A stretch of 64,000 nucleotides of DNA from Lewinellaceae bacterium SD302. GTDB taxonomy: Bacteria > Bacteroidota > Bacteroidia > Chitinophagales > Saprospiraceae. The stretch lies in assembly GCA_002591745.1 (NCBI GenBank), contig PDLQ01000005.1, positions 1 through 64,000 on the forward strand, in the 5' to 3' direction. Position numbers and translations under genes: made by a program. Numbering within the stretch: the stretch's first letter is position 1; the number at the start of each line of letters is the position of its first letter. Shown here piece by piece: positions 1,166 through 62,600 of this stretch. The notes below the pieces were generated by a model. The model was not told the DNA's origin, did not search any database, and worked only from the letters and a program-made list of their open reading frames with translations.

Positions 1166-3109
1166 GTGCGATCGTCCGTTAGCGTCTTGCTTATACTCTT
1201 GTTTTACTTCACTGCTACTTTGCCAGCCAATGCCCAACTAGGCTATGAGCGAATTGCGGATATCACTAAGAAAAAGGACCGCTCACTACTTTACGAAGCC
1301 CGGCAGCTGATCGGGATGAAAAACTATGACCCGGCTATTCCGCTGCTGGATGAACTGGTGAAGCGTAACCCGCTGAACATCGATCTGATCTATATGCGCG
1401 GCACCATTCAGAAAGACCGCAAGAACTACGATGCGGCCATTTCCGACCTGGAGGCAGGCATAAAACTGGCTGCGGATTATAACGTCGGGGTGTTTATGGA
1501 ACTTGGGAAAATTTACCAGTTGGCGGGGAGATCGGATGAGGCCATTGATGCTTACGAAGACTTCCTGCGTCGTGCTGGGCCAACCGACCCGGCTTACAAA
1601 AAGGTGGAAGACCTGCTTGCCCGCGCCAGAGTAGCCCGGGAACTGATGGCTAACCCGGTCCCCTTTAATCCGGAACCCCTGCCAGGAGCGGTGAATACCA
1701 AGCAACACGATGAGTATTTTCCTAATCTCGACGTGGATGGAAAGCGGATGATCTTCGTGCGTAACCTTAACCATAACCACGAAGATTTTTATGAGTCATT
1801 TTTACAAGAAGACGGAAATTGGTCCGCTCCTCAGCCACTGGAATACATCAACAGTGAATTCAATGAAGGGGCACAAACGGTAAGTGCAGATGGCAGCTTG
1901 ATCGTCTATACCATTTGCAATAAACCCGGTGGACTAGGAGAGTGTGATCTTTACTTTACGGAACGAAAAAGGGGAGAATGGACGCCAGTAACTAATATGG
2001 GGCGGCGGGTTAACAGTCGTTTCCGGGAAACCCAACCTACGCTCAGCGCCGATGGGAAGCTACTGTTTTTCGCTTCTAATCGACCCGGTGGGGTAGGGAA
2101 GCAAGACTTATGGGGATCAGCACGCAATGAGCAGGGCTTCTGGTCACAGGCCGTCAACCTGGGGAAAACGATCAATTCTGCGGGTGACGATATATTCCCC
2201 TTTTTTCATCCCGACGGCAAGACGCTTTATTTCACTTCCGACGGCCATCCCGGGATGGGAGACCGCGACCTCTTCCTGGTACGTTTGCAAGACAATAATA
2301 CCTGGACCGAACCGCAGAATTTGGGCTACCCGATCAACACGCCAGATCGGGAAACAAACATTTTTATCGACCTGGCGGGGTCACGGGCCTTTTTTGCCAA
2401 AGAACCGAGTGCTGATTTTGAGGGGCGGAACGTAGACATCTACACCTTTGAACTCCCCGAATCTGCCCGCCCAATCCCAGCCACTTACGTCCGCGCAACG
2501 GTAGTAGATGCCACGACCCAAGAACCATTGCTGGCTAGTGTACGCCTGCGGCCGGTAAGCGCCAGCACCGCGCCCAAGACTTATCAAACGGACGAAAAGG
2601 GGAGTTTCCTCATTGTGTTACCCACAGGTAAGAACTACGCCCTGAGTGTCGATCAGGAAGGCTACTTTCCCTATAGTGCCCAATTCAGCCTGGATGAAGG
2701 CGGTGCGCCGGAGGAACCCTTCGAAGTTCGCATCGAGCTACAGCCAGCCCTGCCTGACGGACTCGTGAAAGACCAGTCCATTGTCCTCCGCAACGTACTC
2801 TTCGAATCCGGATCGGCTGATTTACTGGATGTTTCCTTTCCTGAGTTGGATCGTCTTTACGACTTGCTGAACCGTCTACCTGATCTTCGCATTGAACTCG
2901 GCGGTCATACGGATAACGTCGGCTCCGATACTGATAATCAGATACTAAGCGAGGCGCGTGCCAAGGCCGTGCGCCAGTACCTGATGGAAAAGGGAATTCC
3001 GGCCGAACGTCTTGAATACCGTGGTTACGGAGAGAGTCAGCCGGTCGCCGATAACCAGACTAGTGCCGGCAGAGCGGAGAACAGAAGGACCGAATTCAAG
3101 GTCTTGTAG
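1166..3109 (+). CDS. PorE-like TPR / beta-propeller / CRD / OmpA protein
   Basis: The domain order is that of PorE, the T9SS protein thought to anchor the secretion complex to peptidoglycan: N-terminal TPR repeats (about residues 30-160), a PD40/WD40-like propeller (about 170-430, with repeated DLYFTERK and FFASNRPGG-type blades), a carboxypeptidase-regulatory-like fold (VRATVVDATTQEPL), and a C-terminal OmpA domain with GGHTDNVGSDTDNQ and NRRTEF. The same frame is open from ATG 998, but that start lies in the repeat and ATG 1076 is in a terminator loop. GTG 1166 gives a textbook signal peptide (hydrophobic LLILLFYFTATL, then ANAQ), so I prefer it; TTG 1118 is an alternative. There is no lipobox Cys. 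Proteins of this architecture are numerous in the phylum, so a strict PorE role is inferred from the domains and from the nearby PorU-like gene. Confidence 0.8.
   Translation: MRSSVSVLLILLFYFTATLPANAQLGYERIADITKKKDRSLLYEARQLIGMKNYDPAIPLLDELVKRNPLNIDLIYMRGTIQKDRKNYDAAISDLEAGIKLAADYNVGVFMELGKIYQLAGRSDEAIDAYEDFLRRAGPTDPAYKKVEDLLARARVARELMANPVPFNPEPLPGAVNTKQHDEYFPNLDVDGKRMIFVRNLNHNHEDFYESFLQEDGNWSAPQPLEYINSEFNEGAQTVSADGSLIVYTICNKPGGLGECDLYFTERKRGEWTPVTNMGRRVNSRFRETQPTLSADGKLLFFASNRPGGVGKQDLWGSARNEQGFWSQAVNLGKTINSAGDDIFPFFHPDGKTLYFTSDGHPGMGDRDLFLVRLQDNNTWTEPQNLGYPINTPDRETNIFIDLAGSRAFFAKEPSADFEGRNVDIYTFELPESARPIPATYVRATVVDATTQEPLLASVRLRPVSASTAPKTYQTDEKGSFLIVLPTGKNYALSVDQEGYFPYSAQFSLDEGGAPEEPFEVRIELQPALPDGLVKDQSIVLRNVLFESGSADLLDVSFPELDRLYDLLNRLPDLRIELGGHTDNVGSDTDNQILSEARAKAVRQYLMEKGIPAERLEYRGYGESQPVADNQTSAGRAENRRTEFKVL
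1214..1222 (+). repeat. GCTACTTTG word, inside the PorE-like gene
   Basis: Context ACTGCTACTTTGCCAGCC; codons for TATLPA in the signal peptide. Confidence 0.8.
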
Positions 3110-3116
3110 ACTATAT

Positions 3117-3147
3117 TTGCTAAAATTGTTAGATTAGTCTAACTTTG
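3117..3147 (+). promoter_or_regulatory. Bacteroidota-type promoter for the metal permease
   Basis: TTG at 3117-3119, 20-base spacer, and TAACTTTG at 3140-3147, a full match to the phylum consensus TTG-N17-23-TAnnTTTG. The ATG at 3155 is only about 7 bases past the -7 box, so the transcript would be leaderless or nearly so. Confidence 0.65.
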
Positions 3148-4924: not shown

Positions 4925-4933
4925 GCTACTTTG
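4925..4933 (+). repeat. GCTACTTTG word, intergenic, left arm of pair
   Basis: Context CAGTGCTACTTTGCTAGG; inverted partner at 5032-5040. Confidence 0.8.
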
Positions 4934-5031: not shown

Positions 5032-5040
5032 CAAAGTAGC
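5032..5040 (-). repeat. GCTACTTTG word, intergenic, right arm of pair
   Basis: Minus-strand reading CATTGCTACTTTGCCAGG; 19 bases before the porU start. Confidence 0.8.
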
Positions 5041-5058: not shown

Positions 5059-8000
5059 ATGATGTTTTCCCGCTCGCAACTTACCTTATCAATTCTGTTC
5101 CTGACCCTAGTAAGTCTTTCGGCTCAAATACCCACCATAAATGGTGATACGCTGTATGGCCGTGAGTGGATCAACCCGGACGGCGCTGATTATTTGCGGG
5201 TTTCCGTTACGGAGGAAGGCTTTTACCGGCTTAGTCCACAGGAAATTGGCTTGGCGGGTTTTCAGTTTACCAGTACCCCGGCGGAAGACTGGCGACTCTG
5301 GTTGAGGGGTGAACAGGTACCCATTTTTGTTAATGATCAGGGCATCTGGTTCTGGGGTGACAAGAACAGGGGGGAGTTGGATCGCCATCTTTTTGCCACT
5401 CCCGAGGCCGATCAATTGAATCCGGCTTACAGCATGTACAATGATACGGCCGTTTACTTTCTGGGGCTGGCCGTGGATGAAGCGCCGAACCTTTACGCTG
5501 AAACAACAGCGGGAAATACGAGTGGACTAAGTGCGGAACCCAACGTTTTTCGTACTGCTCAGCGGGTATTTAATGAGTTTTCCAACAAGGAATTCATTCG
5601 TACTCAGGGTATCAGCATCTTTTATTCCCACTACGATACGGGTGAGGGCTACGGCAGCCGCTCCATCAACGATCTGCTGAGTTTCAACGGAGAGACCACA
5701 ACACCTTTTGAACTGGAACTGGATGGTTTGGCAACGAGTGGGCCACCGGCCGCAGCGAGCGTTCGTTTTGGTCTTGGATTTGACGCTCACAATCAGCAGT
5801 TAACAATCGAGGGACAGGACCTGGGGAATGTAGTGCAGGGAAACTGGTCGGTGCAGGAGTTGAGCGGGATCTTTACGCCCGGCGGCACTTCTATAAGTGG
5901 CAGTCTGACCGGTTCGGGCGGTGATCGCGACAAGGCAAACCTCGCCGTGGTAACGATCGATTATCCTGCCGTTACGGACTTGACCGAAGGTGGCTTTGCC
6001 TTTACTTTGCCGGCTAATGCCAGTGATCGTCGCCTCAACTTTTCTGGTAGCGGCAGCGGTAATTATGCCCTAATCAATCATTCTGCCGAGACGATATCCT
6101 TTTCGACTGCCAGCCCTGATTTTCGAATCCCGGCCACCAACGAATCCCAGCAATTTTACATCGTCGATCTGGGCGAATCGCTTTCGGCTATCAGCCTGGA
6201 AAGAGTAAGCCTGAACGATCTTCGCCCGAGCCAGTCAGTGGACTTTTTGATCATCACTTCCGTGCGCCTTCGCTCCGACGGCAGTGGTGACGATCCCATT
6301 CAGGAATACGCGGATTATCGCCGGTCTATCACGGGTGGTGGCCACCGGGTTCAGCTGATCAATGTAGAAGATCTATACGACACATATGCTTATGGGATAA
6401 ATCGCCATCCGTTGGCCATTCGTAACTACCAGGCTGATTTGCGAAAGCTTTATCCCGGACTCCGCTACCTCTTCCTTATCGGTAAAGGCAGGGAATATTC
6501 GGATATGCGTACCGAGGACCAATTGGCTACGGCCGAGGAGACTTTCTTCGTGCCCAGCTTCGGTTTACCCGCCAGTGATAACCTGATTTCGGCGGACGTG
6601 GATGGCATAGTACCGAAATTAGCTACCGGCCGGCTCAGTGTAATTAATGCTGATGAAGTAGCCCTTTACCTGGATAAGGTCCGGGGTTTCGATGAACAGG
6701 TAAACCTGCCACAAAACCTAGAGGATAAGGACTGGCTCAAGCAAATCGTGCACCTCAGTGGCGGCGGTTTACCGACCGAACAACTCTCTATTCGTAACCT
6801 GCTACAGAACATGGAGTTCGAGGTGGAGAACAATGAGTTCGCCGGCTCCGTCAGCAGCTTTTTCAAAACCAGCAGCGACCCGATCGAGGAAAGTCGGGAA
6901 CAAGCAATCTTTAACCGGATCAACGAAGGCACATCCATCGTTACTTTCTTTGGCCACTCCAGTAGCCAGGGCTTCGATTTTAATATCGACAATCCGGAGA
7001 ACTACCTGAACGAAGATCGCTACCCGCTGATGCTGTCGCTGGGCTGTTACAGCGGAGATGCATTCACTTCTCTGCGTAGTATCGGTGAGCGTTTTGTCTT
7101 GCTGCCCAACAAGGGGGCCATCGCTTTTGGCGCATCCAAAGGGTTGGGCTACATCCCTGTATTGGGGGCCTTCGGCCGTAAATACTACGACCTGATGGGC
7201 GGTGAGTTGTATGGCCGTGGTATCGGCGAGATACTGAATGGGAGTATCAATCATTTCAAGAATCAGGGTAGCTTTTCCTACCGGATTTTGTTAGAGCAAT
7301 TTAGTCTGAACGGCGACCCGTCGATTCGTCTACACCCTCAGCCAGGGCCGGATTTAGTTTTTGATCCGGCCTCCGTAGAATTCGAGCCAAGGGTGATTCC
7401 CGCCCAGCAAGACAGTTTTACGGTGCGGATGCGACTGGTCAATATCGGCCGCGGAACGGAGCAGGAGCATACACTCCGGCTGCGCCAATTATTACCCAAC
7501 GGCAACGAACTTCCCCTGGGGGAATACCGCGTTCAGTTGAAGGGCTACGACGAGCAGGTTGAGCTGCGCCTGCCAAACAACGGTTTTATGGCCGTAGGTT
7601 CCAATCGCCTGCTGGCTACGCTGGATAACGCCAACGAAGTGAGTGAACAGCCGCTTCCCTCCGCCGAAGCCAATAATGAATTACAGCGCAACGGCGAGGC
7701 GGGCGTGCCCTTCTTCATCGTAGCCAATACGGCCCGGCCGGCTTATCCGCCACCCTACGCTTTATACGAGGGCAGCGAAACTGTTCAATTAGTAGCTTCC
7801 ACCACTAATCCATTAGCTAGTGAGCAGCGCTACTTTCTGCAACTGGATACCAGCCAGCTATTTGCAACGCCTGTGGCTACTACGGAGATTACCCAGTCGG
7901 GCGGTTTACTGAATTGGTCGCCCCAGGTCAACTGGCAAGATAGTACCGTCTACTATTGGCGCATTAGCCCGGACAGTATCTACAACGAGGGCCAGGGATT

Positions 8001-10083
8001 CATCTGGAACCAAAGCTCTTTTACCTTCCTGACTGATAATCAGCAGCCGGGCTGGGCCGTGGCTCACCAGGGGCAGTTCAACGAAGGAAGCCTGACCAAT
8101 ATTCGCAGCGAGGTAGACCGCAATAACTGGACTTTTTCCCGTACGCTCAATGACGTTAGAATCCGTGCCAAAGTTTATGACCCCAACGATGAACCCCAGT
8201 GGATTTTTAATGGGCAGGTCTTCGGCTCTCCTCATCCCTGGGTGACGACCAACGGTATCCAGGTACTGGTGATCGACTCTACCAATAATGATAACTGGAT
8301 GAATAGTCCCGGAGACGGTTCCTACGGTAGTCTGACGCACGCCGGACCCCGCTCACCCTGGAGTTTCGATACCCGTACCCCGGAAGGACGTGCCGGACTG
8401 ATCGACTTCATCGAGAACGGGATACCGACCGGAAAATACGTCACCCTCTGGACGGCCCAACGCGGCGCCGAACTCGACTATGGTGCTGGCGAGTGGATTA
8501 GCGATAGTACGACCTTGGGCAAAACCATTTTTGGTGCTCTGGAAGCCGAAGGGGCCGAACAGGCGCGCCAACTGATCAATCTTGGTCCGGTACCGTACGT
8601 TTTTGCCTTCCAGAAAGGCATTGGCCCCCTCGGTGAAGTCGTGGCCGAAAGCCAGGAGGACATTGCCGACGTCACCGTAGCTATTGAGGAGAACTGGGAC
8701 CAAGGTAGCTGGACGAGTCCAACCATCGGACCGGCCATCAGCTGGGACAAACTGGAATTCGCCCTGGAACCGGCTTCAATCGGTTCGGAAGACTCCATTA
8801 TCCTGCGCGTTTACGGATTCGGCGGGGTAGGGGACAATACCGTATTGCTACGCAACCGATCCCTGAACCTGGGCTCCAGTAACTATTTCACCGAAGACCT
8901 GGCCGATATCAACGTAGATAACTACCCTTATCTCCGCGCCGAATTACTACTCTTTGATGAGGCCGAACGCAGTGTGCTGACGCCTCGCCAACTCTACTTT
9001 CATTACCAGGACGGTGTAGACGTAGCCATTGATCCGGCCGTAGCTTTTGGTGGTAGTCTCGATAGTTTGCAGCAAGGAGAGGAACTGCAACTGGAGATCG
9101 GCTATCGCAATATTTCTCGTCGTGATATGGATAGTCTGCTGGTTAAATTCACCGTTAGCGGCGACGGTGGAATCAGCCGGACCGAGAGCCTGCGCCAGCC
9201 ACCATTACCCGCGGGTGCTACGGGAACGCTGAACTTCAGTACCCCGACCGTCGATCTAAGGGGTAACGTTCAATTCCAACTGCAACTAAACCCGAATCAG
9301 GACCAAACCGAAGGCATAATTTTTAACAACGATTTACTCAAAGAGTACTTTTTCGGTCAGGACCGGACCGCTCCGGTTCTCAACCTTTATTTCGACGGGG
9401 TGAGCATTCGCGATGGAGATATCGTGAGCGCCAGACCCGAAATTCTGATTGAACTGAGGGATGAGAACGAGTATTTACTGCTCAATGATTCTTCGGCCTT
9501 TACCCTCAATTTGCTCTATCCGGACGGGACGGGTGAATTTATTGCCAATGGCGATCCACGGATAGAATTTCAGCCGGCTTCGGGTAGTAATGACAACCGG
9601 GCCAGGGTTCTGTTTCGCCCGGAATTTGCCCAGGATGGCCAGTACAGCCTCAGCATCCAGGCTGGGGACCGCAGCGGTAACGCAAGTGGCCGTACGGAGT
9701 TGATCAGAGAGTTCGAGGTGATTACCGAGCAGCGGGTAGCCAATGTTTTCAACTACCCCAACCCCTTTGTGGACCGTACCCAATTCGTCTACACCCTCAC
9801 CGGCGACGCTCCGCCAGAAGTCTTCCGTATCCAGATCATGACCATCAGCGGCCGGGTGGTCTACGACGTTGACCTGGCTCAACAGGAACAACTCAAAATT
9901 GGCACCCACCGCACCCGCTTTAGTTGGGATGGTACCGATGAATACGGCGATCAACTGGCCAACGGCGTCTATCTCTACCGCGTCATCACCCGGGATGCTA
10001 ACGGAGAAGAACTAGAAAAACACGATAATGGAACGGATCAGTTTTTCCGGAACCGGATGGGTAAGCTGGTCATCTTAAGGTAG
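5059..10083 (+). CDS. porU: Type IX secretion sortase PorU-like, C25-family cysteine peptidase
   Basis: PorU removes the C-terminal sorting domain of T9SS cargo and attaches the cargo to the cell surface. The 1674-residue product has a signal peptide (LSILFLTLVSLSAQ), an N-terminal beta-rich region, and a gingipain-like C25 peptidase core. The catalytic dyad is visible as FFGHSS (His633) and LGCYSG (Cys663). Long beta-sandwich regions follow, and the end (NYPNPF near residue 1570, then NGVYLYRV) resembles a FlgD-like or sorting-type domain. It is longer than P. gingivalis PorU (about 1160 residues) and closer in size to the PorU2-type proteins of other Bacteroidota classes, so PorU2 is the alternative name. 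It stands alone on its strand, and a PorE-like gene lies 2 kb upstream. A T9SS cargo gene sits at 45.4-46.9 kb. Confidence 0.75.
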   Translation: MMFSRSQLTLSILFLTLVSLSAQIPTINGDTLYGREWINPDGADYLRVSVTEEGFYRLSPQEIGLAGFQFTSTPAEDWRLWLRGEQVPIFVNDQGIWFWGDKNRGELDRHLFATPEADQLNPAYSMYNDTAVYFLGLAVDEAPNLYAETTAGNTSGLSAEPNVFRTAQRVFNEFSNKEFIRTQGISIFYSHYDTGEGYGSRSINDLLSFNGETTTPFELELDGLATSGPPAAASVRFGLGFDAHNQQLTIEGQDLGNVVQGNWSVQELSGIFTPGGTSISGSLTGSGGDRDKANLAVVTIDYPAVTDLTEGGFAFTLPANASDRRLNFSGSGSGNYALINHSAETISFSTASPDFRIPATNESQQFYIVDLGESLSAISLERVSLNDLRPSQSVDFLIITSVRLRSDGSGDDPIQEYADYRRSITGGGHRVQLINVEDLYDTYAYGINRHPLAIRNYQADLRKLYPGLRYLFLIGKGREYSDMRTEDQLATAEETFFVPSFGLPASDNLISADVDGIVPKLATGRLSVINADEVALYLDKVRGFDEQVNLPQNLEDKDWLKQIVHLSGGGLPTEQLSIRNLLQNMEFEVENNEFAGSVSSFFKTSSDPIEESREQAIFNRINEGTSIVTFFGHSSSQGFDFNIDNPENYLNEDRYPLMLSLGCYSGDAFTSLRSIGERFVLLPNKGAIAFGASKGLGYIPVLGAFGRKYYDLMGGELYGRGIGEILNGSINHFKNQGSFSYRILLEQFSLNGDPSIRLHPQPGPDLVFDPASVEFEPRVIPAQQDSFTVRMRLVNIGRGTEQEHTLRLRQLLPNGNELPLGEYRVQLKGYDEQVELRLPNNGFMAVGSNRLLATLDNANEVSEQPLPSAEANNELQRNGEAGVPFFIVANTARPAYPPPYALYEGSETVQLVASTTNPLASEQRYFLQLDTSQLFATPVATTEITQSGGLLNWSPQVNWQDSTVYYWRISPDSIYNEGQGFIWNQSSFTFLTDNQQPGWAVAHQGQFNEGSLTNIRSEVDRNNWTFSRTLNDVRIRAKVYDPNDEPQWIFNGQVFGSPHPWVTTNGIQVLVIDSTNNDNWMNSPGDGSYGSLTHAGPRSPWSFDTRTPEGRAGLIDFIENGIPTGKYVTLWTAQRGAELDYGAGEWISDSTTLGKTIFGALEAEGAEQARQLINLGPVPYVFAFQKGIGPLGEVVAESQEDIADVTVAIEENWDQGSWTSPTIGPAISWDKLEFALEPASIGSEDSIILRVYGFGGVGDNTVLLRNRSLNLGSSNYFTEDLADINVDNYPYLRAELLLFDEAERSVLTPRQLYFHYQDGVDVAIDPAVAFGGSLDSLQQGEELQLEIGYRNISRRDMDSLLVKFTVSGDGGISRTESLRQPPLPAGATGTLNFSTPTVDLRGNVQFQLQLNPNQDQTEGIIFNNDLLKEYFFGQDRTAPVLNLYFDGVSIRDGDIVSARPEILIELRDENEYLLLNDSSAFTLNLLYPDGTGEFIANGDPRIEFQPASGSNDNRARVLFRPEFAQDGQYSLSIQAGDRSGNASGRTELIREFEVITEQRVANVFNYPNPFVDRTQFVYTLTGDAPPEVFRIQIMTISGRVVYDVDLAQQEQLKIGTHRTRFSWDGTDEYGDQLANGVYLYRVITRDANGEELEKHDNGTDQFFRNRMGKLVILR

Positions 10084-10091: not shown

Positions 10092-10100
10092 CAAAGTAGC
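10092..10100 (-). repeat. GCTACTTTG word, between porU and Wzt gene ends
   Basis: Minus-strand reading ATTGCTACTTTGTTAGCC; between convergent stops. Confidence 0.8.
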
Positions 10101-10130: not shown

Positions 10131-11311
<1,181 letters not shown>

Positions 11312-11315
<4 letters not shown>

Positions 11316-14290: not shown

Positions 14291-15152
14291 AGAAAAACTG
14301 TCGGACCTGCCGCCAACCACCGGTCGTTATGGCCTTGCTCAACAGTTGTATTGCCTGGCTTCGCTCTCCCGCCAGTGCCGCCTGCCGCGCAGCGTGAAAC
14401 CACTGATGAGCCAGTAGGTTTTGGTAGGTTCTTGGTGGTACCCTTTGGTCTACTCCGGGCTCCGCGTAAGCATTATGGATGATTTTGATTCTTTCCTTCG
14501 TTCTTTCTATTCCTCCTTCCACCAGGGTGCGATTGGTTTCGTGTTGGCGATAGATCACAGTGGGCTTGCCGGGAATTTGCAGCAGCGGATATTTGATTAG
14601 AACCCTGCTTACCCATTCAAAATCTTCGATGATACGCGGTGCCGGATCAATGGGGGAGTGTGTGATCACTGAGCGGGGAAATGCGAGCGACGTGATACCG
14701 CAGGGAGATTGCCAGTACTGAAACAGGCCGTCATCCGTATTATTGAAATTGGGATAAGTAACGATGCGATCGTCGGTGTAGCGGCCGGCCAGGGGCGTTC
14801 TGACAACGGATTCCGGAAAATCATGGGCTTCCAGATAATCGGCCAAGGTCGCCAGGTGGTCCGGCAGGAAATAATCGTCGTCGTCAAGAAAGCACAGGTA
14901 GCGGCCGGTGGATTGCTTAGCTCCCGATTTCCTGGCGGCGGCGGGACCCTGGTTATCCTGGCGAAGTAGTTTGATGCGTTGGTCAGTAGAGAGCCACCTA
15001 CTCAGATCAAGCGGTTTCCTGGAGCCGTCGTCTACCACCAGCAATTCCCAATCGGACCAGGATTGTACAACCACGCTTTCAATGGCCGCAGCCAATAATT
15101 TTGGTCGTTGGTAGGCTGGAATGATCACAGAGAAAAGAGGCCGTTCATCCAT
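14268..15152 (-). CDS. Glycosyltransferase, family 2
   Basis: A 294-residue GT2 enzyme: FSVIIPAYQRPKLL, then LLVVDDGSRKP, GPAAARKSGA and the DDDD motif at 90-93. It overlaps the upstream GT4 gene by 8 bases and is therefore translated with it. Its 3' end overlaps the convergent glycosyltransferase by 23 bases. It probably adds one residue of the surface glycan exported by the nearby ABC system; donor and acceptor are unknown. Confidence 0.85.
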   Translation of the reverse strand: MDERPLFSVIIPAYQRPKLLAAAIESVVVQSWSDWELLVVDDGSRKPLDLSRWLSTDQRIKLLRQDNQGPAAARKSGAKQSTGRYLCFLDDDDYFLPDHLATLADYLEAHDFPESVVRTPLAGRYTDDRIVTYPNFNNTDDGLFQYWQSPCGITSLAFPRSVITHSPIDPAPRIIEDFEWVSRVLIKYPLLQIPGKPTVIYRQHETNRTLVEGGIERTKERIKIIHNAYAEPGVDQRVPPRTYQNLLAHQWFHAARQAALAGERSQAIQLLSKAITTGGWRQVRQFFSTLYHLL

Positions 15153-16305
15153 TGGTCCTGGATTGCAGTGCTAAGGCATAGACTTCGCTGAAGGCATCCC
15201 GGATGGCGGACTCCCCGCATATTTCGACGGTCCTCTTTCTAATGCCAGGGCCGTCAAAGCCTTTGTATTTATTTACTATTTCTAATAATGCGGTGGTCAT
15301 GGCTGATTCATCGCTCACCGGAACTAGAATGCCATTCTCGGGACTTATCAATTCCGGCAGGCCCCCGACGGGTGTCGCGATGCAGGGCCGTCCGGAACTC
15401 AGTGCTTCCAGGATGACCACTGGTTGGTTCTCCACATTACTGAAAAGTACGAAAGCGTGAGCAGACCGGATGAGGGTGGCAATCTCCGTTTCACTGTGTG
15501 GCCCCGATAGTTCGATAGCTTCGGGCTTCAGCTTCAATTCAGCAATGCTACTTTGCCAGTCCGTCAAATTACCATCGCCGGCCAACCTTAATTTCAGTGG
15601 GTGGGCACTTAGTTCGGTAGCGGATTTAAATGCTCGCAGCAGACCACTTACGTTTTTATGCCAATCGCGAAAATTGGAGATGTGGAGAAAGGTAAAGGGT
15701 GGTTGTTTCGGAGGCTTCGTATAGTGAAAAACTTCAGTATTTACCACATTGCCCACGGTTCGGTAGCGCCCGTGTAGACCGTGTTGATCTTGCATGGTCT
15801 TCCCCAGTGCAGTGGTTACCGGCAGCATAAAAGCAGCTCGCCGCACCGCCCACCGCCCCAGGACACCCCGCAGGCCCGGAAGCGCATCTGACGACCAATA
15901 AGCCGTGCTGTGTTCCGTCACTACGAACGGTACGCCCGTAAACAGGTGGTAAAATCCGGCAACAATCCCGGCATCCAGTAAAACATGGGCGTGCACGATG
16001 GTGGGCTGGCCAAATTGCTTCCGGTAATTCTCCAAGCCCATTCGCCAGGCCTTAGCCCGTAACCAGATCCTTTGCCAGGAAGGGGTAGCTTCATTCTGAC
16101 CGAAATAAACCGTGAGACCCGCATAATCCTCTTTCTGCCAATTCTCTACCTTAAATTGCCTACGGGCCAACTGAGGATCAGCCTGGATGTTGAGCACGAA
16201 AAGTTCGTGTGCGCTAGCTACCGTCCTGGCATGCTTCTCCACGAAGTTGCCGTGGGTAGGGTGTACCCGCGTCGGGAACCAACTGGCCAGGAAAAGTACG
16301 CGCAT
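15145..16305 (-). CDS. Glycosyltransferase, family 4 (GT-B fold)
   Basis: A 386-residue GT4/group 1 enzyme. The N-terminal domain starts MRVLFLASWFPTRVHPTHG and carries HAHVLLDAG. The C-terminal domain has FLHISNFRDWHKN, LAGDG and the donor-binding stretch AFVLFSNVENQPVVILEAL, where the ExxxxxxxE pattern of GT4 is seen as E.QPVVILE. It retains the sugar configuration in this family. It is the first gene of a two-gene unit with the GT2 enzyme that overlaps it by 8 bases. A GCTACTTTG word lies within its codons (15547-15555). Confidence 0.85.
   Translation of the reverse strand: MRVLFLASWFPTRVHPTHGNFVEKHARTVASAHELFVLNIQADPQLARRQFKVENWQKEDYAGLTVYFGQNEATPSWQRIWLRAKAWRMGLENYRKQFGQPTIVHAHVLLDAGIVAGFYHLFTGVPFVVTEHSTAYWSSDALPGLRGVLGRWAVRRAAFMLPVTTALGKTMQDQHGLHGRYRTVGNVVNTEVFHYTKPPKQPPFTFLHISNFRDWHKNVSGLLRAFKSATELSAHPLKLRLAGDGNLTDWQSSIAELKLKPEAIELSGPHSETEIATLIRSAHAFVLFSNVENQPVVILEALSSGRPCIATPVGGLPELISPENGILVPVSDESAMTTALLEIVNKYKGFDGPGIRKRTVEICGESAIRDAFSEVYALALQSRTNG
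15547..15555 (+). repeat. GCTACTTTG word, inside the GT4 gene
   Basis: Context CAATGCTACTTTGCCAGTCC; encodes DWQSSIA on the opposite strand. Confidence 0.8.
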
Positions 16306-19447: not shown

Positions 19448-19456
19448 CAAAGTAGC
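19448..19456 (-). repeat. GCTACTTTG word, just before the GtrA gene
   Basis: Minus-strand reading CCTTGCTACTTTGCTAGG; 12 bases before the ATG. Confidence 0.8.
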
Positions 19457-22665: not shown

Positions 22666-22674
22666 GCTACTTTG
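22666..22674 (+). repeat. GCTACTTTG word, between RND adaptor and pump
   Basis: Context CCTTGCTACTTTGTTAGTC, in the sense opposite to the operon. Confidence 0.8.
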
Positions 22675-22699
22675 TTAGTCAAAAAACAATTGGCTGTGC

Positions 22700-23824
22700 T
22701 TACTCGCTTTTCTCTACGAACATACCATCATAGGCACCCGCGATGGTATTGGTGACCAGGTTCGTGCCATCCGCCAGGCCGCTGACGACCACGGTTTCCC
22801 GGTCGTACTTGAGGACGTTGACGGGGGTCAGTTGCAGAATCGTATCCTGTACGAGGGTATAGACGGCGCGTTGGTCAATGAGTAAGTTGCGATCGATCTC
22901 TACTGCATCGGCCAGGGTTTTAGCGTCGGCTTCTCCCCGGAGGTACATGCCTTCGCGGAGATTCTCGCCGCTTACGCCAATGAAAACTTCCACGGTTTGG
23001 GAGCCCGGGTCGATCTGATCACTGATCCGCTTGATGGTGCCCGTCCAGTTGCCCTGAATGTCCTCACTTCTTAGCTGCACTTTGCCGCCGGTTTTGAGGA
23101 AGTCGAGCTGGGAAAGCGGAACGGTGGCGACCAGTTCATAGGAGCCGGTTGCCATTAGCTCGCCGATCTGTTGACCGGTGCGAACGACCGCTCCCACGTC
23201 GATATTGGAACTGGTGAGTACACCGCTGAAAGGAGCGGGAATAACGAATTTACTCAGCCGTTCTTCCACACTTTTGATGTTGTAGTACTGGGTGTAGAGG
23301 TTGCGGCCGGAGACGAAGAGCTTCTCGGAGCGGTTGTCGGCTTCGGGGAGTTCCTTGATCGGAGCGTCAACGTTAAATTCGGCGAGGTAGCTATCCCATT
23401 TTTCGAAACTGGCTGGGTAATCGATTTTGAGATCCGGCATCATCATGGCGATGGAATTTAGCAGAGTAGCTTTTTGGGCTTGCAGGCTGAGGCGGGTTTC
23501 GGTATCGTCGATGCGCAAGAGGGGAGCGCCCTTAGGAAAGTAGGTGCCCACTTTGAAAGGTCGGCCGGTGGCTTTAAGCGTGCCGGTCACCTCGCTGAAC
23601 AGGCCGATCTTATTGAAAGCCTGTAACCTGCCCTGCACGTCCAGTTTGGTAGAAACGGCTTGGTTGCTGATGGCTTTGGTTTCTACTTTTTTGCGGCGAA
23701 CCTGTTCCTGACGAACTGGAGGCTCCGGCTTCTGGGCGGTCAGGAATTTCATGCCGAAGTAGCCGCCGATCAGCAAAAGGATGCCGACCACAATGCCGAT
23801 GAGGCGCCGTTGCGATTTAGTCAT
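22700..23824 (-). CDS. RND efflux periplasmic adaptor (HlyD/AcrA type)
   Basis: A 374-residue membrane-fusion protein: one N-terminal helix (LIGIVVGILLLIGGYFGMKFL) anchors it, then a lipoyl/barrel-sandwich half (KLDVQGRLQAFNKIGLFSEVTG) with a helical hairpin and the returning half (VIPAPFSGVLTSSNIDVGAVVRTGQQIG). The beta-barrel and membrane-proximal domain follow. It links the RND pump gene that follows to the TolC channel. It is the first gene of the operon; no clear promoter motif was seen in the 200 bases upstream. Confidence 0.9.
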   Translation of the reverse strand: MTKSQRRLIGIVVGILLLIGGYFGMKFLTAQKPEPPVRQEQVRRKKVETKAISNQAVSTKLDVQGRLQAFNKIGLFSEVTGTLKATGRPFKVGTYFPKGAPLLRIDDTETRLSLQAQKATLLNSIAMMMPDLKIDYPASFEKWDSYLAEFNVDAPIKELPEADNRSEKLFVSGRNLYTQYYNIKSVEERLSKFVIPAPFSGVLTSSNIDVGAVVRTGQQIGELMATGSYELVATVPLSQLDFLKTGGKVQLRSEDIQGNWTGTIKRISDQIDPGSQTVEVFIGVSGENLREGMYLRGEADAKTLADAVEIDRNLLIDQRAVYTLVQDTILQLTPVNVLKYDRETVVVSGLADGTNLVTNTIAGAYDGMFVEKSE

Positions 23825-24218
23825 GTTAGAGGTGGTTAATGTGGGGTTCTGAAAAGTTGCCAGAAATACTTGCTACGGAACCACATAAAGAGGAGGGAAG
23901 TTTTTGGAAAGGGACAAAATCTACGCAGTTAATGAGATTATACAGCCAGCATGTCAATTATTCCATCTCAATCGTGTCATCGATTCTGGCGAGCAGAAAA
24001 CTTCCCCATTTATCTCTAATCATACTTGGTAAGAGGCAGAAACGGAGCCCCGCGTCGCTCTACGTTGAAATTACCATCCTGGTTAATGAGTCGCGAAGGC
24101 CGGCTTGTCGACCGGAGCTTGTCGCCTAGCCCTGAATCGCCGGAAAAATCTTCTTGCGAGTCGTTATCCCGATTACAAGGCCGGAGTCGGCTGGCCAGTT
24201 CATCTAGCGATAAAAAAA
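23825..24218. other. Intergenic stretch upstream of the efflux operon
   Basis: Nearly 400 bases with no gene I can support. Bases 24088-24125 (GTCGCGAAGGCCGG..., CGGAGCTTGTCGCC) recall single modules of the mosaic palindrome arrays, but without the constant linker. It must contain the promoter of the efflux operon on the minus strand and the tail of the TIGR03643-like gene. Confidence 0.5.
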
Positions 24219-24452
24219 TTAGCGTTTACTGATCTTGTTCTTGGTAATGGTGCGTTGCATCCGACTCTTGAAACGCATTACTTCCTCAGACCGTTTGGCC
24301 AAGTGCTTGGTGCCCCGGCCGCTGACCCTGGCCCGCCAGTTGCGCCAGGACTTCGGTTTCAACTCCCGGCGCATCAATTGAATGACTTCTCCTTCCCGCA
24401 GGCCGAACTGCACCTCAATAGCGTCAAAAGGTGTTCGGTCCTCCCAGGCCAT
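24219..24452 (-). CDS. TIGR03643/DUF2805-family protein, start uncertain
   Basis: MAWEDRTPFDAIEVQFGL, then EVIQLMRRELKP and WRARVSGRGTKH match the small basic family TIGR03643 (DUF2805), whose function is unknown. Family members normally begin about 12 residues earlier with a helix of the SIDRIIE type. That helix and about 20 more plausible residues are present in frame here up to about 24,552, but no ATG, GTG or TTG occurs before the in-frame TAA. The gene may therefore start at the internal ATG 24452, use a rare start codon, or have lost its start. Confidence 0.65.
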   Translation of the reverse strand: MAWEDRTPFDAIEVQFGLREGEVIQLMRRELKPKSWRNWRARVSGRGTKHLAKRSEEVMRFKSRMQRTITKNKISKR

Positions 24453-24721
24453 TTCGATAATACGGTCTATTGAGCGTTCGGGGAGAAGGAGGTCGGGGCG
24501 GCCCTTGCGTTTGATCTTGCGAACGCGGTCTTCCTGATCTTGGTAGTTGAGGGTATCGTCGTGGATAACTGTTTATTTGGTCTAACGGGCATTGAGGTCT
24601 TTGGTTTATCGGGAACAGGAGACAGGAGCGCTGTGCTTTAAGGATCAGGACACCTGGCTCCTATCTTCTGAAGCCGAGGCAGCACAGCGACCGAAGGCCA
24701 CCCCAGCTCTAATTTCCAAAC

Positions 24722-25174: not shown

Positions 25175-25359
25175 GGTTTTATTTGATACTACCATTTCGG
25201 CCTGACTTTTGTGCGGACCGCGGAAAGGAAAACAGCTAAAGCTATGTTCAACAAAGCTGAGGACCGCGGTGGCGATCAGCGAAGCTGTAGCAGCAGTGAT
25301 TTTAGTTAAGCAAGACGATTGCACTTAACTACATGCTCGGAAATCCCAGGCAAAGTGTC

Positions 25360-25857: not shown

Positions 25858-25917
25858 AAATAGGCGTTAATTATTTTATCGTGTCTATTTGCCATATCCA
25901 GTACCCGGGGTGATCAT

Positions 25918-27426: not shown

Positions 27427-27434
27427 GTGCGATA

Positions 27435-37321: not shown

Positions 37322-37487
37322 TGGGTAGGGGATTAAGCTTGGTTGGCCGCCAATTTATCATTTACTTTCAGGACTGTGGTGATTAATCCGAAATTTTAGG
37401 TGGGTAGTTTTTCACTGTCTTCAGCCCGGCCCGTATCAATCGATCATGTCAATTATCCGTAGCTGTTTTTTGGCTGACAAAGTAGCC

Positions 37488-37539: not shown

Positions 37540-37548
37540 GCTACTTTG
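37540..37548 (+). repeat. GCTACTTTG word, 11 bases before the serine hydrolase ATG
   Basis: Context CCTTGCTACTTTGAAGTCC. Confidence 0.8.
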
Positions 37549-45226: not shown

Positions 45227-45235
45227 GCTACTTTG
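45227..45235 (+). repeat. GCTACTTTG word, left arm of inverted repeat
   Basis: Context CTTTGCTACTTTGAAGTCC; partner at 45347-45355. Confidence 0.8.
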
Positions 45236-45346: not shown

Positions 45347-45355
45347 CAAAGTAGC
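45347..45355 (-). repeat. GCTACTTTG word, right arm of inverted repeat
   Basis: Minus-strand reading CATTGCTACTTTGAAGTC. Confidence 0.8.
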
Positions 45356-49748: not shown

Positions 49749-50175
49749 ATACAGTATGGTTTTTTAATTAGTTAAATGCTTGTTCTCGAGTGTTCGCAGC
49801 GGATATTTTATGGTTAGCAAAGTAGCAGTGCTGGAAAAGCAGGACAAGTGATCGCCTTCCTGACCAACCAATACTACTGGCTAAGCTCTCCGCGTTAGAA
49901 CGCTACGCGTATTACCAAGACCGTGCCACCCGCTTCTGACTGACAAAGTGACGGTTTACAGCGAACTTGTCCGCCGAAACGGACCGGAGGACTTTATTCG
50001 ACGGCCGACCGGATATTCAAATTTTGTCCCGATAAGCTTTTAAGGTAATCCGGACCGCACCGGCGGGCGAGCTCGATCATTGCTACATTGATAGCCAAAA
50101 TCCTTCTTAACTTCGCCCTCACAACCCTCAATCCATCTTTCCCCAACCCCTCAGTCCTTATATACCTTATATACC
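49749..50175. other. Divergent intergenic region, groES / rfbB
   Basis: 427 bases without a supportable gene. It contains a GCTACTTTG word at 49818-49826 and a one-mismatch version (ATTGCTACATTGATAGCC) at 50079-50096. It must hold the promoters of groES (minus) and rfbB (plus), but I see no clear -7/-33 pair. Confidence 0.6.
49818..49826 (-). repeat. GCTACTTTG word upstream of groES
   Basis: Minus-strand reading CACTGCTACTTTGCTAACC. Confidence 0.8.
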
Positions 50176-52920: not shown

Positions 52921-53158
52921 GGATGGACGGCCGTTGGCCTCGTGGACGGGCTAAAGCCCTTTTAGACGCCTTCGGCTTGTGGACGGCCTTCGGCCTTGTG
53001 GATGTCGCTGCGCGACTTGTGGACGATCGCTGGAGCGATCTTGTGGGAGAAGTCCAGCTCCTTCCACCAGCGAGCAACGAGCGTTTACAAGCCACAGGTG
53101 TCCACAAGGCCAGCGGCCTTCCACCAGCGAGGCACGAGCGTCCACAAACGCTGTGTCT
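52921..53158. repeat. Mosaic palindrome array E
   Basis: Left half (52921-53044): GGACGG, GGCTAAAGCCC, CCTTCGGC, GGCCTTCGGCC, TCGCTGCGCGA and ATCGCTGGAGCGATC, joined by TTGTGGACG-type linkers. Right half (53062-53158), inverted: GCGAGCAACGAGCG, GCCACAGGTGTCCACAAG, GGCCAGCGGCC, GCGAGGCACGAGCGTCCACAA; it ends at the stop codon of the DUF4197 gene. Confidence 0.75.
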
Positions 53159-53894
53159 AATTATCCTGTTTAGCAAACACTTTCCGCAGTAACTCCGTCT
53201 GCCGCAGGGCCGGGTTATCACGCAGTGCGGCTTCCTTCTCCTCCACTTTGCCGAACATGCCGACGAGAGCCTTGTCGGTGACGTGTTCGTCGAGTTCGGG
53301 GTTGACGTCTTTGGTCAGGGGAAGCTTGTTGTAGGTGTTGACAGCCTTGCGCCAGTATTCGCGGGCGTTAACTTCGTCGAGGCTGGACTGGATGACGGGT
53401 AAGAAAGCGGCCATTAAGGCAGATTTGGTGGTGCCTTCCAGGTAGCGGGTAGCTGCGTCGTCTTCGCCCATGAGGATATTCATGGCATCTTTAAAAGTAA
53501 GGCCGGTAATCGCGTCCAGGAAGATCGGTTTGGCCTTGGCGGCGGCGATCTCGGCAGCTTCGTTCATTTTGTCAATCAGGTCCTGTTCCACATTCTGGAA
53601 ACCGGGAACCATTTTGAGTTTGCTCACCACTTGCTGGGCTTCCTCGGGCACCAGGATTTTATACGGACTGGCAAAGTAGCCGTGTTTTTGGTTCAGGGAA
53701 GTAACGGCTTCTCCGACCCCCACTTCCAGGGCTTCTTTAAGGGCATTACCGACCTCTTCGTCGGAGAGCGGATTTCCGCCACTTAAGACATTATCTGCCT
53801 TGTCCTTCAGTTTGCCGAGGGTCTTACCGAACTGGGCCTGGGCCGGGATTTGAAAGAGAGAGAGAATGAGTAGAAAAATGAAATATCGTTTCAT
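53157..53894 (-). CDS. DUF4197-domain secreted protein
   Basis: 245 residues from ATG 53894: signal peptide (YFIFLLILSLFQIPAQA), then LSDEEVGNALKEALEVGVGEAV, YKILVPEEAQQV and MNEAAEIAAAKAKPIFLDAI, typical of DUF4197, a helical periplasmic family of unknown role in Bacteroidota and Proteobacteria. A GCTACTTTG word lies within the codons of HGYFAS (53672-53680). The stop codon abuts array E. Confidence 0.85.
   Translation of the reverse strand: MKRYFIFLLILSLFQIPAQAQFGKTLGKLKDKADNVLSGGNPLSDEEVGNALKEALEVGVGEAVTSLNQKHGYFASPYKILVPEEAQQVVSKLKMVPGFQNVEQDLIDKMNEAAEIAAAKAKPIFLDAITGLTFKDAMNILMGEDDAATRYLEGTTKSALMAAFLPVIQSSLDEVNAREYWRKAVNTYNKLPLTKDVNPELDEHVTDKALVGMFGKVEEKEAALRDNPALRQTELLRKVFAKQDN
53672..53680 (-). 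repeat. GCTACTTTG word, inside the DUF4197 gene
   Basis: Minus-strand reading CACGGCTACTTTGCCAGTCC; encodes HGYFASP. Confidence 0.8.
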
Positions 53895-53952
53895 GGTGGT
53901 TGATCTTCGGGTTAATCGAAAGCGTCGATAATATGTGAGCATTACTAGCATT

Positions 53953-53961
53953 GCTACTTTG
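53953..53961 (+). repeat. GCTACTTTG word upstream of the DUF4197 gene
   Basis: Context CATTGCTACTTTGGCAGC. Confidence 0.8.
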
Positions 53962-54225: not shown

Positions 54226-55539
54226 ATGGCTTCCACCGAAGTTCAAGCGAACTACAAAGTAAAAGATATCAATCTGGCCGCCTGGGGCCGCAAGGAGATC
54301 ACCCTGGCCGAAGCGGAAATGCCCGGCCTCATGGCCCTGCGCGAGCAGTATGGCGAAAGTAAGCCGCTGGCTGGTGCCCGCATCGCCGGCTGTCTGCACA
54401 TGACCATTCAAACCGCCGTTTTGATCGAAACGCTGGTAGAATTGGGTGCCGACGTCACCTGGTCCAGCTGTAACATTTTTTCTACTCAGGACCACGCCGC
54501 CGCAGCCATCGCTGCCGCCGGTGTTCCCGTTTTTGCCTGGAAAGGTATGACTGAGGAAGAATTTACCTGGGCCATCGAGCAGACACTCTTTGCTTTTAAA
54601 GACGGACAGCCGCTGAACATGATCCTCGATGACGGTGGTGACCTGACCAACATGGTATTGGACGACCACCCCGAATTGGTAGAGGCGATCAAAGGCCTGT
54701 CCGAAGAAACCACCACCGGTGTTCACCGCCTGTACGAGCGTGTGAAAAATGGCACCCTGACCATGCCGGCTATCAACGTGAACGATAGTGTGACCAAGTC
54801 GAAGTTCGACAACAAGTACGGCTGTAAAGAATCTGCAGTAGACGCTATTCGCCGCGCCACGGACGTAATGATGGCTGGCAAAGTAGCTATCGTTGCCGGT
54901 TACGGAGACGTGGGTAAAGGTACCGCCGCTTCCCTGCGTGGAGCCGGTTGCCGCGTGATCGTCACCGAGATCGACCCGATCTGTGCCCTGCAAGCTGCCA
55001 TGGACGGATTTGAGGTTAAACGTATGGACAACGCGGTTCACCGCGCCGACATCATCGTTACCGCCACTGGTAACTTCAATATCCTTACCGGCCGTCATTT
55101 CGAGGCTATGAAGGACAAGGTGATCGTTTGTAACATCGGTCACTTCGATAACGAGATCGACATCGCCTGGCTGAACGACAACCACGGCGACAGCAAAGAC
55201 AATATCAAGCCACAGGTGGATATGTACACCGTCAACGGTAAAGACATCATCATCCTGGCCGAAGGCCGTCTGGTAAACCTGGGCTGTGCTACCGGTCACC
55301 CTTCTTTCGTAATGTCGAACAGCTTCACCAACCAGGTACTGGCTCAGCTGGAACTGTGGAAGAACAGCGACAACTACGAAAACAAGGTATACATGCTGCC
55401 TAAGCACCTGGATGAGCAGGTAGCCCGCCTTCACCTCAGCAAGATCGGCGTAGAGCTGGAAGACCTGAGCGAAGAGCAGGCCGAGTACATCGGTGTGGAA
55501 GTAGCCGGCCCCTTCAAGCCGGAGTACTACCGTTACTAG
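54226..55539 (+). CDS. ahcY: Adenosylhomocysteinase
   Basis: It splits S-adenosylhomocysteine into adenosine and homocysteine and so removes the product inhibitor of methylases. 437 residues; [19 protein letters not shown], the NAD-binding [19 protein letters not shown] and the C-terminal [10 protein letters not shown] are diagnostic. It lies alone, with a promoter box before it and a hairpin terminator after it. A GCTACTTTG word (54889-54897, minus sense) falls within the AGKVAI codons of the NAD loop. Confidence 0.97.
54889..54897 (-). repeat. GCTACTTTG word, inside ahcY
   Basis: Plus strand reads GGCTGGCAAAGTAGCTATCG, codons for AGKVAI of the NAD loop. Confidence 0.8.
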
Positions 55540-59504: not shown

Positions 59505-59637
59505 CTGAGCTTGTTTTCCTCTTTGATGCCAAATTAAAGACGATTGCACAGCGGGAAGCGGGTGTTTGCAAATCGTTTGCAATTGGAAAAACCTCCTGGT
59601 TCAGTATCTTACCCCTACACTTTGAAAATCCATATCT

Positions 59638-62600
59638 ATGCGTTTACCCCTTAGTCTTCTGCTTCTGTTCTTCGTTGGCACTGCTACCCCGTCCGCCCAA
59701 AGTTCAGGCCGGGCAGGTTTGCTAACCAGCCAAAGCTATGATCCGGATCGCTATGCCTCCCTGGAATTCAGGAATATCGGGCCTTTTCGGGGAGGGAGAA
59801 GCGCGGCGGTAACCGGTGTGCCGGGAAAACCTTTGCTCTATTACTTCGGCGCTACGGGCGGTGGTGTCTGGAGGACCAAGGACGGCGGACAGAGCTGGGA
59901 GAACATCAGTGATGGACATTTCGGTGGTTCTATCGGGGCCGTAGCGGTCAGTGAATCTGACCCGAATACGATCTACGTGGGTGGCGGAGAGAAAACCGTA
60001 CGTGGTAACGTTTCCTACGGTTACGGTGTTTGGAAAACCGAAGATGGTGGCAAGAACTGGAGTGATATGGGACTGGCAGACAGTCGCCACATCTCTCGTA
60101 TCCGTATCCATCCGCGTGATAAAAACCTGGCTTACGCAGCCGTGATGGGCGATCTGTTCAAAAGTAGCGAAACCCGTGGCGTTTACCGTACTACAGACGG
60201 TGGCCAAAACTGGGAACGCATCCTGTTCGCCAATGCTGACGCTGGCGCCGTGGATCTGGTCATGGACCCTAATAACCCGAACGTACTATTTGCCTCTACC
60301 TGGCGCATCCGCCGGACACCCTACAGCCTGGAAAGTGGGGGAGAAGGCTCTTCACTCTGGCGCTCTACCGACGGTGGCGATAACTGGGAGGAACTAAAAG
60401 AAAAACCCGGCCTGCCCGAAGGCACCTGGGGCATCAACGCCGTAGCCGTTTCGCCGGTGGATGGCAATCGTATCTACAGCATCATTGAAAACAAGGATGG
60501 TGGCGTTTTCGTCTCCAACGATGGCGGCGATACCTGGAAAAAAACCAACAGTGACCGTAATCTACGCCAGCGCGCCTGGTATTACACCCGCATCTACGCC
60601 GACCCTCAGGACATTGATGGCGTCTACGTGATGAACGTAAGCTACCAACACAGCGTAGACGGAGGTCGTAGCTTTAAAAGTAAGCGTGCCCCCCACGGCG
60701 ATCATCATGACTTATGGATTGCCCCCGAAGACCCGGAACGGATGATCATCGGCGACGATGGTGGAGCTCAGGTAACTTTCGATCAGGGCGAAAACTGGAG
60801 CACTTACCACAATCAACCGACCAGTCAGTTTTACCGGGTAACTACCGATAATCATTTCCCTTACCGTATTTATGGTGCCCAACAGGATAACAGTACGGTA
60901 CGAATCGACCATCGTGGCCGTGGCCGCTACCTGGGGGAATCCAACTGGGAAAGCACGGCTGGTGGTGAAAGCGCCCACATTGCGCCAGATCCGAATAACC
61001 CGGACATCGTCTACGGCGGCAGCTACGGCGGGTTTCTGACGCGTTATGATCACGAGACTGGTCAGCGACGCGGCGTCAACGTCTGGCCGGATAACCCGAT
61101 GGGCCACGGAGCGGAGGGCATGAAATACCGCTTTCAATGGAATTTTCCGATTTTCTTCGGGGCTAAAAACCAGCTTTACGCTACCTCTAATCAAGTCCAC
61201 CGCAGTACCAATGAAGGTCAGAGCTGGGAGATCATCAGCCCGGACCTGACGCGAGCCGAAGCCGAGAAGTTGAAATCCAGTGGTGGTCCGATTACCCAGG
61301 ATAATACCAGTGTGGAGTATTACGCCACCATCTTTGCCGCAGCGGAGGATGAAAAAGAACCGGGCGTGATCTGGGCGGCCAGCGACGATGGGCTGGTTCA
61401 CGTTACTCGCAATGACGGCGGGGACTGGACCGACGTGACTCCCGCCGCCGCACCCAAGTACACGATGTGGAACAGCGTACGCGTTAGCCCCTTCGATAAA
61501 GGCCACGTTTACCTGGCCGGAACTCAGTATAAGCTGGGCGATTATACGCCTTACCTTTTTAAATCCACGGACTACGGCCAGAGCTGGCAACGTATCGACG
61601 GTGGTATCCCCCGCGATCATTTTACCCGCGTATTACAGCCCGACCACAAACGCAGAGGCTTGCTTTACGCCGGCACCGAGAGTGGACTTTACATCAGCTT
61701 CAACGACGGCAAAAACTGGGAGCCCTTTCAGCAGAACCTGCCCATTGTACCCATTACCGACTTGGCCTGGAAAAACGATAACCTGATCGTAGCTACCCAG
61801 GGCCGTAGCTTCTGGATACTGGACGATCTGACCCCACTGCACCAACTTGATGATGCCGTCAATACGACCGATCTGCAACTGTACGCACCTACCAGGGCCT
61901 ACCGTATGGGCGGTGCCGGACCAGATGCCAAAGCCAGTAAGACTGCGGGAATGAACCACCCCGGCGGTGTAACCTTTCACTATTACCTGGACGAGGAAAT
62001 TTACACCGATACGCTGGAAGCTAAATTTCACGTCATATCGGCGGCAAATGACACCATTCGAAGTTGGTCGACCAAGGGCAAAGGCAAGGATAAGTTGGAA
62101 CTGGAAGCCGGTAGTCACCGCCTGCACTGGGACCTTTATTACCCTGGTGGTACCCGCGTAGACGGTATGATACTGTGGTGGGCGGGACTGGGTGGTCCGA
62201 TGGCCATGCCCGGAAAGTACACCGCTAGCCTGGAATACGGAGACATGATGAAAACCGTTCCCTTTGAGATAGCTCCCGATGAGCGTGTTGAAGCCAGTGA
62301 TGCCGACCTGAAAGCCCAGTTCGACTTTATGCTGGAAGTCCGCGACAAGGTCAGCGAAGCCCACCAGGCAATCATTGATTTACGTAAAGTCCGGAGTCAG
62401 ATCAATACTTTCCAGGGGATGTTGAAGGGTGGCTATCAAAGTAGCAATGCCGACGAAAACAGCGAGCTGATCGCCTACGGAGATAGTCTGACCGGTCGGC
62501 TCACGGAAGTGGAGGAAGCCCTTTACCAAACCAAGAACCGTAGCGGCCAGGATCCTCTGAACTTCCCAATCCGTCTGAACAACAAACTGGCCCACCTCAA

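Follow-up and report, generated by a model that had tools for sequence, protein, structure and literature searches.

A repeated 9-mer in the SD302 window

The first 64,000 nucleotides of contig PDLQ01000005.1 of Lewinellaceae bacterium SD302 (assembly GCA_002591745.1; Bacteroidota), referred to below as the window, harbor 17 copies of the 9-mer GCTACTTTG, here called the word. An earlier note, made from the sequence of the window, had listed 17 copies with about 0.5 expected by chance. All 17 were recovered, compared with a mean of 0.46 (largest value, 4) in 100 dinucleotide-preserving shuffles, and GCTACTTTG was the top over-represented 9-mer in the window. Fifteen of the positions printed in that note were right, while 37488 and 54889 should read 37478 and 54879. 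The copies, with their strands and their placement relative to open reading frames (ORFs), and the longest interval between them are as follows.

1214-1222, +, word copy inside ORF 998-3109 (OmpA/TPR/PD40 protein), close to its 5' end
4925-4933, +, intergenic word copy, inverted pair with 5032
5032-5040, -, intergenic word copy immediately upstream of ORF 5059-10083, inverted pair with 4925
10092-10100, -, word copy between convergent genes
10516-10524, +, word copy in ABC-transporter gene 10131-11315, encoding NKVA
15547-15555, +, word copy in glycosyltransferase gene 15145-16305
19448-19456, -, intergenic word copy
22666-22674, +, intergenic word copy, the final one ahead of the word-free stretch
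22675-37477, no strand, word-free stretch, the longest in the 664-kb sample described below
37478-37486, -, intergenic word copy, inverted (divergent) pair with 37540
37540-37548, +, intergenic word copy, inverted (divergent) pair with 37478
45227-45235, +, intergenic word copy, inverted pair with 45347, 1-nt-spacer form AAGTCC
45347-45355, -, intergenic word copy, inverted pair with 45227, 1-nt-spacer form AAGTC
49818-49826, -, intergenic word copy
53672-53680, -, word copy in DUF4197 gene 53157-53951, encoding GYFA (GYYG or GYYA, ungapped, in relatives)
53953-53961, +, intergenic word copy at the start of ORF 53157-53951
54879-54887, -, word copy in S-adenosylhomocysteinase gene 54226-55539, encoding GKVA, residues identical in 19 relatives
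62437-62445, -, word copy in ORF 59638-62787, encoding QSS

As the earlier note had stated, six copies (1214, 10516, 15547, 53672, 54879, and 62437) are inside genes; Pfam matches support five of the six ORFs, the other, ORF 59638-62787, being outside the Pfam scan. Genes were called with a simple purpose-written caller that missed some ORFs, including the gene part or ORF holding copies 1214 and 15547.

Abundance and form of the word in the genome

The source genome (G000; 5,478,864 bases in 147 contigs) was searched for GCTACTTTG, with the reversed pattern as a built-in control. The word was found 770 times on one strand and 763 times on the other (1,533 copies, or one per 3.6 kb), versus 43 and 37 (80 copies) for the control. 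The genome-wide count proposed in the earlier note therefore yielded a large excess, with many copies within genes. Such over-representation on both strands is a criterion for the DNA uptake sequences (DUS) of Neisseriaceae and the uptake signal sequences (USS) of Pasteurellaceae.

A consensus drawn from 124 copies across 444 kb of the genome extended the word to RRCA(T/C)T-GCTACTTTG-NYAG(C/T)C-AAAA, approximately RRCAYTGCTACTTTG(N)YAGYCAAAA, a motif of about 22 bp with an A-rich end. The extended flank of USS likewise includes an A/T-rich part. Flank columns -6 to -1 and 9 to 18 contribute about 10.6 bits on top of the fixed core, and conservation fades farther out. The spacer between the core and the AGY block has two lengths: among 192 copies, it was 2 nt in 120 and 1 nt in 49, frequently as AAGTC, with 23 copies having neither. 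The similarity of flanks described earlier is real, although it had been drawn only roughly, and the flanks are not the runs of tens of identical bases proposed as the mark of a mobile element. The exact form TGCTACTTTG occurred 167 times against 2.8 expected, while its single-mismatch forms showed hardly any excess (78 against 60 expected), so that recognition of the word seems to be sharp.

Related words in the genus

To place the word among relatives, 20 further genomes of the genus (21 with the source) and 79 relatives beyond the genus were examined. None of the 20 congeners had a comparable excess of GCTACTTTG, the counts reaching at most 81 copies, near control, with a top ratio of 46 to 18 (G009). 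The highest count in the 79 further relatives was 228, against a control of 118 (G037); the top ratios there were about eightfold at a low count (50 to 6, G090) and four- to fivefold in G080 (127 to 27) and G050 (114 to 27). No dispersed word was found within 40 kb of G050 or in 60 kb of G080, where the enriched words cluster within some 17 kb and mostly share a strand. A longer pattern, TGCTACTTTGNYAG, had 836 matches in the source genome and at most 6 in any other of 398 family genomes. Among the genomes searched, the word is confined to the source species.

De novo counting in a congener identified a different dispersed word, CGCAGGTGC, with 1,337 copies in G002, 1,478 in G005, 1,491 in G006, and 1,374 in G014 (controls, 22 to 64) and a control-level count in the source genome (37 versus 38). 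It was at least 2.6-fold above control in 17 of the 20 congeners and at least 4.8-fold in 14; as ratios of 2 to 3 against the reversed pattern also occur outside the genus, only larger ratios count as evidence of a word. The weakest congeners were G004 and G007, near twofold, and G001, with none. Some weaker congeners carry variant words, namely, CGCGGGTGC in G012, G016, and G019, GGAGCGCAGGTA in G001, and possibly GGAGCGCGGG in G007, and only weak words were detected in 100 kb each of G009, G012, G017, and G020. A further string, ACAAAAGCACAAAA, is enriched in G019 alongside CGCGGGTGC and recurs in 10 or more separate kilobases across the 200 kb inspected (L105-L109 and L153-L157).

Three other candidates were discarded as dispersed words. 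In G005, AATCGAGAATC proved to be the unit of a single local tandem array (contig C1, 21633-22640; L022, about 1600-2650). In G015, CTTATGTCC (6 of 7 copies) and CTTCTACATA were local repeats; contig C2 of this genome (L030, 13253-15582) holds three near-identical inverted repeats, CTTATGTCC...GGACATAAG, about 1 kb apart.

Written on the same strand, the motif of the source genome is TTTTGGCTRnCAAAGTAGCAATG and that of the congeners is GGGCGCGGnCGCAGGTGCARnG. Aligned by eye, they have the common skeleton GGC-spacer-C-NN-AG-NN-GC(A)-R-N-G. The GCTACTTTG and CGCAGGTGC words are thus, to judge from this alignment, apparently dialects of one genus-wide recognition system. In a tree of one gene, S-adenosylhomocysteinase (20 genomes, midpoint root), the source genome fell in a clade of 11 genomes, without a resolved position beside G015 and nine others. 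As both clades of the tree carry the CGCAGGTGC type, GCTACTTTG appears to be the derived form; this would not hold if the tree were in truth rooted on the source genome's own branch.

Origin of the coding copies

A burst restricted to one species is also what a short mobile element, similar to repetitive extragenic palindromic (REP) sequences or miniature inverted-repeat transposable elements (MITEs), would leave on spreading in the source species. An insertion of this kind would be absent from orthologous sites, and this was not what alignments of coding copies showed. In the S-adenosylhomocysteinase gene, synonymous codons spell the word, and the residues are identical and ungapped in all 19 aligned relatives, one of which (G016) also has the same 9-mer. 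For 17 of the 55 coding copies, the surrounding sequence was then searched in two congeners, and 30 loci were kept. Alignments that had less than 43% identity (three) or did not span the word (one) were excluded, and six pieces did not align among the kept loci. Of the 12 copies that could be aligned with at least 48% identity, one of which entered via the same gene as another, 10 were ungapped across the word, while the other two, both in poorly conserved stretches, had gaps in or beside it. These alignments indicate that the coding copies tested arose by substitution, and several proteins had residues altered by the word, e.g., NKVAE here versus SRVEE and RRVDE in relatives, suggesting that acquisition of the word was at times costly to the protein. 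Copies that lie both in and between genes and arise by mutation are a further criterion for DUS and USS, with substitution seen here for the coding copies. A mobile origin was rejected on the ungapped orthologs of these copies; the graded flanks, which are not those of a fixed unit, the regular same-strand spacing described below, and the matching word system of the congeners also argue against it, making it the least probable explanation considered here.

Placement relative to genes

Placement and spacing statistics were obtained from a 664-kb sample holding 192 of the 1,533 copies. Word density was 1.40 per 10 kb within genes and 9.58 per 10 kb between genes, a nearly sevenfold difference, although 76 of the 192 copies lie within genes. 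Coding copies lean toward gene ends (18, 9, 7, 7, and 14 by quintile; n = 55) and have no strong preference for either strand of the gene (43 versus 33).

The intergenic preference could also be that of a transcription or RNA signal, such as a promoter, operator, or terminator, and intervals between divergent genes are somewhat enriched, with 38 of 114 intergenic copies against about 27 expected by length. However, co-directional intervals hold 22 sense and 16 antisense copies (P = 0.42), which, with the many genic copies, led us to reject a promoter, and convergent intervals hold only 7 of the 114. Terminator stems were likewise rejected, as few are possible: only 3 of the 31 neighboring pairs less than 400 bp apart are within 40 bp, most close pairs being separated by 40 to 400 bp. 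A signal of this class is very unlikely.

Strand-specific spacing of the word

The inverted pairs mentioned in the earlier note understated the pattern, as inverted orientation accounts for 40 of the 42 neighboring pairs separated by less than 800 bp. Same-strand pairs less than 2 kb apart numbered 8, against 56.9 under uniform placement and 35.0 under label shuffling (P = 0.0005, the floor of 2,000 shuffles), while opposite-strand pairs showed no avoidance (64 versus 55.6 predicted). The same-strand deficit was about half at 2 to 3 kb and was gone by 3 to 4 kb. Each strand taken separately is regular, with mean gaps of 6.5 and 7.0 kb and coefficients of variation of 0.49 and 0.57. As opposite-strand pairs are near expectation beyond 500 bp, the alternation of strands follows mainly from same-strand exclusion. 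The other word, in G002, behaved likewise, with no same-strand pairs and 14 opposite-strand pairs where 9.7 of each were expected (shuffle P = 0.0005), and none of the control 7-mers was equally extreme in strand exclusion in the source genome (0 of 651) or in G002 (0 of 1,466). The simplest reading is that the effect of each copy is probably confined to one flank or to one strand, with a reach of about 2 to 3 kb. Divergent and convergent pairs (19:12 below 500 bp, 5:7 at 0.5 to 1 kb, and 16:5 at 1 to 2 kb) are too mixed to indicate the direction.

Strand-specific exclusion with balanced strands is what a one-way reader would select, and the main rival to an uptake word is a Chi-like site, read in one direction at breaks by an AddAB/RecBCD-type nuclease, for which each strand would need a regular supply. 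The word resembles Chi sites in being directional, frequent, and on both strands, and a reach of a few kilobases fits. Known Chi sites are short, at 5 to 8 nt, and are not known to be species specific within a genus, unlike the present motif, which is about 22 bp long, favors intergenic DNA, and differs among congeners. We regard this explanation as improbable, though the least so of the rivals.

Slightly less probable still is a chromosome-organizing word, bound in an orientation-dependent manner by a nucleoid or segregation protein that sets domain boundaries. Even spacing on each strand, the inverted close neighbors, and the intergenic preference would fit such a role. Along a 360-kb stretch, however, the strands are balanced (56 versus 45 copies, even in 60-kb steps), and the binding site of an essential protein should not change at about 1,500 places among congeners. 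A polar word similar to the FtsK-orienting polar sequences (KOPS) was rejected on this balance, no strand polarity being found over the 360 kb, for which the position of the origin was not located. The earlier note had offered an uptake or a segregation word; the former is the better supported, and KOPS-type segregation is unlikely given the balanced strands and the lack of any congener sharing the word.

A probable uptake-type word and a candidate receptor

Taken with the spacing, these features make it probable that the word is a directional recognition sequence of the DNA-uptake type in a naturally transformable lineage of Bacteroidota. A surface DNA receptor would prefer DNA bearing the motif of about 22 bp, and as conspecific DNA was taken up and recombined, the motif would accumulate through molecular drive together with selection for self-recognition. 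If recognition is directional, each copy would serve some 2 to 3 kb of DNA on one flank or one strand, such that a nearby second copy on the same strand would add nothing while one on the opposite strand would. The genus may ancestrally have used a word of the GGCGCGGnCGCAGGTGCARnG type, with the source lineage having switched to GGCTRnCAAAGTAGCAATG, a switch that presumably went with a different receptor.

Competence genes were sought in the genus. ComEC was found in 21 of 21 genomes and DprA was found in the source genome. A Pfam search placed DUF5689 in 1 of the 21 genomes, that of the source species. In Riemerella, a DUF5689 protein and an adjacent barrel are essential for transformation (PMC8459023). 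The corresponding genes of the source genome are as follows.

Contig C115, L183 5673-10601, outer-membrane barrel ORF and, directly after it, the gene of a DUF5689 lipoprotein with three such domains

A word copy lies between the barrel gene and the DUF5689 gene. The DUF5689 protein is a predicted surface lipoprotein whose three DUF5689 domains form tandem OB (oligonucleotide/oligosaccharide-binding) folds in a structure model, and the model resembles OB-fold nucleic acid binders. A PDB sequence search with a DUF5689 alignment (39 of 120 homologs listed, 263 in total) gave no match at an E value of ≤0.1. Partial matches of the barrel in congeners are N-terminal; the loci in G005 and G007 encode a receptor of 930 to 960 residues and, after it, a protein other than DUF5689, and that in G003 encodes a 675-residue receptor with no DUF5689-like neighbor among ORFs of at least 250 amino acids. 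By analogy with Riemerella, the DUF5689 lipoprotein beside the barrel is a candidate receptor for the word. A more specific scheme, which we advance only tentatively and consider doubtful, is pilus-independent directional uptake of self-DNA, in which the DUF5689 lipoprotein of tandem OB folds would read the asymmetric word and feed a TonB-type barrel from one side, this polarity giving rise to the two independent strand ladders and a change of receptor in one species having rewritten some 1,500 sites to another dialect.

Several observations weigh against uptake, its polarity, or this receptor. No convincing type IV pilus or type II secretion ATPase was detected, only short marginal PF00437 matches. 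On these matches, the source genome appears to lack a pilus machinery of the Neisseriaceae type, in which the receptor ComP is a pilin; ComP itself was not searched for. DUF5689 was not found in the 20 congeners, most of which nevertheless have a strong word, and it is present in 62 of the 79 relatives outside the genus, including G080 and G050, in which the 60 kb and 40 kb inspected lack a dispersed word. Having a word therefore does not require DUF5689, nor does DUF5689 suffice for one, and a single lineage is the basis for linking the domain to the source word. In G005, strand exclusion is weak (4 same-strand and 11 opposite-strand pairs, about 12.5 of each expected; shuffle P = 0.06), and the spacing statistics of the source genome cover about one-eighth of its copies (192 of 1,533). 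Finally, uptake by Haemophilus is reportedly unaffected by the orientation of USS (PMC1939737).

Word-free stretch and neighboring genes

The word-free stretch of the window (22675-37477) includes type I restriction-modification genes at 27435-30995, 34617-35804, and 35801-37321, with hsdR, hsdS, and hsdM matches, among which sits a CHAT/TPR gene (31036-34143), and it is likely a defense island. Absence of the word fits recently gained DNA, which would be expected to lack it, although this is a single example and 12 further gaps exceed 8 kb. Elsewhere in the window, ORF 5059-10083 encodes a large peptidase of the C25 family (gingipain-type fold) whose C terminus carries a FlgD-like immunoglobulin-like domain; peptidases of this architecture are often exported by type IX secretion.

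Relation to known systems and significance

Neisseriaceae DUS resemble the word in occurring in hundreds to thousands of copies on both strands, in preferring intergenic DNA, and in forming species dialects that share a core (PMC3630211). Their sequence is unrelated, their host is not a member of the Bacteroidota, and the DUS receptor of Neisseria is ComP (PMC3868556), while the source genome has no convincing type IV pilus ATPase. The dialects of the source genus also differ at more core positions than those of the Neisseriaceae. Pasteurellaceae USS have a 9-bp core with an extended flank, about 1,500 copies, and a bias toward gene ends (PMC2346458), as does the word, but are unrelated in sequence. 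Close USS pairs in Haemophilus overlap and form terminators (PMC7811141), while those of the word are mostly farther apart. Strand-specific spacing is not mentioned in the accessible portions of the Haemophilus and Neisseria literature (PMC1939737, PMC7811141, PMC2346458, and PMC2397512), including, for same-strand exclusion, what these sources say of DUS.

Transformation in Riemerella (Flavobacteriaceae) shares with the source genome ComEC, DprA, and adjacent DUF5689 and barrel genes, the barrels being likened by context only (PMC8459023). Riemerella columbina reportedly favors its own DNA, and a k-mer count there gave A-rich strings; no word of the kind found here is reported in that study (PMC7965970). 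Neither an uptake word in this group of Bacteroidota nor a strand exclusion rule was found among the open-licence literature matches listed.

Uptake words with dialects are already known in Neisseriaceae (PMC3630211), and uptake words are known in Pasteurellaceae. The strand-specific spacing offers a readable footprint of polarity and of a reach of about 2 to 3 kb, which can be checked in Haemophilus and Neisseria genomes. The DUF5689 protein provides a concrete candidate for a surface receptor in transformation without type IV pili, a gap left by the Riemerella work. If the word does act in uptake, genus-wide dialects in Bacteroidota would be an independent third case of uptake words, and the one fully switched species would be a natural experiment on the joint change of words and receptors.

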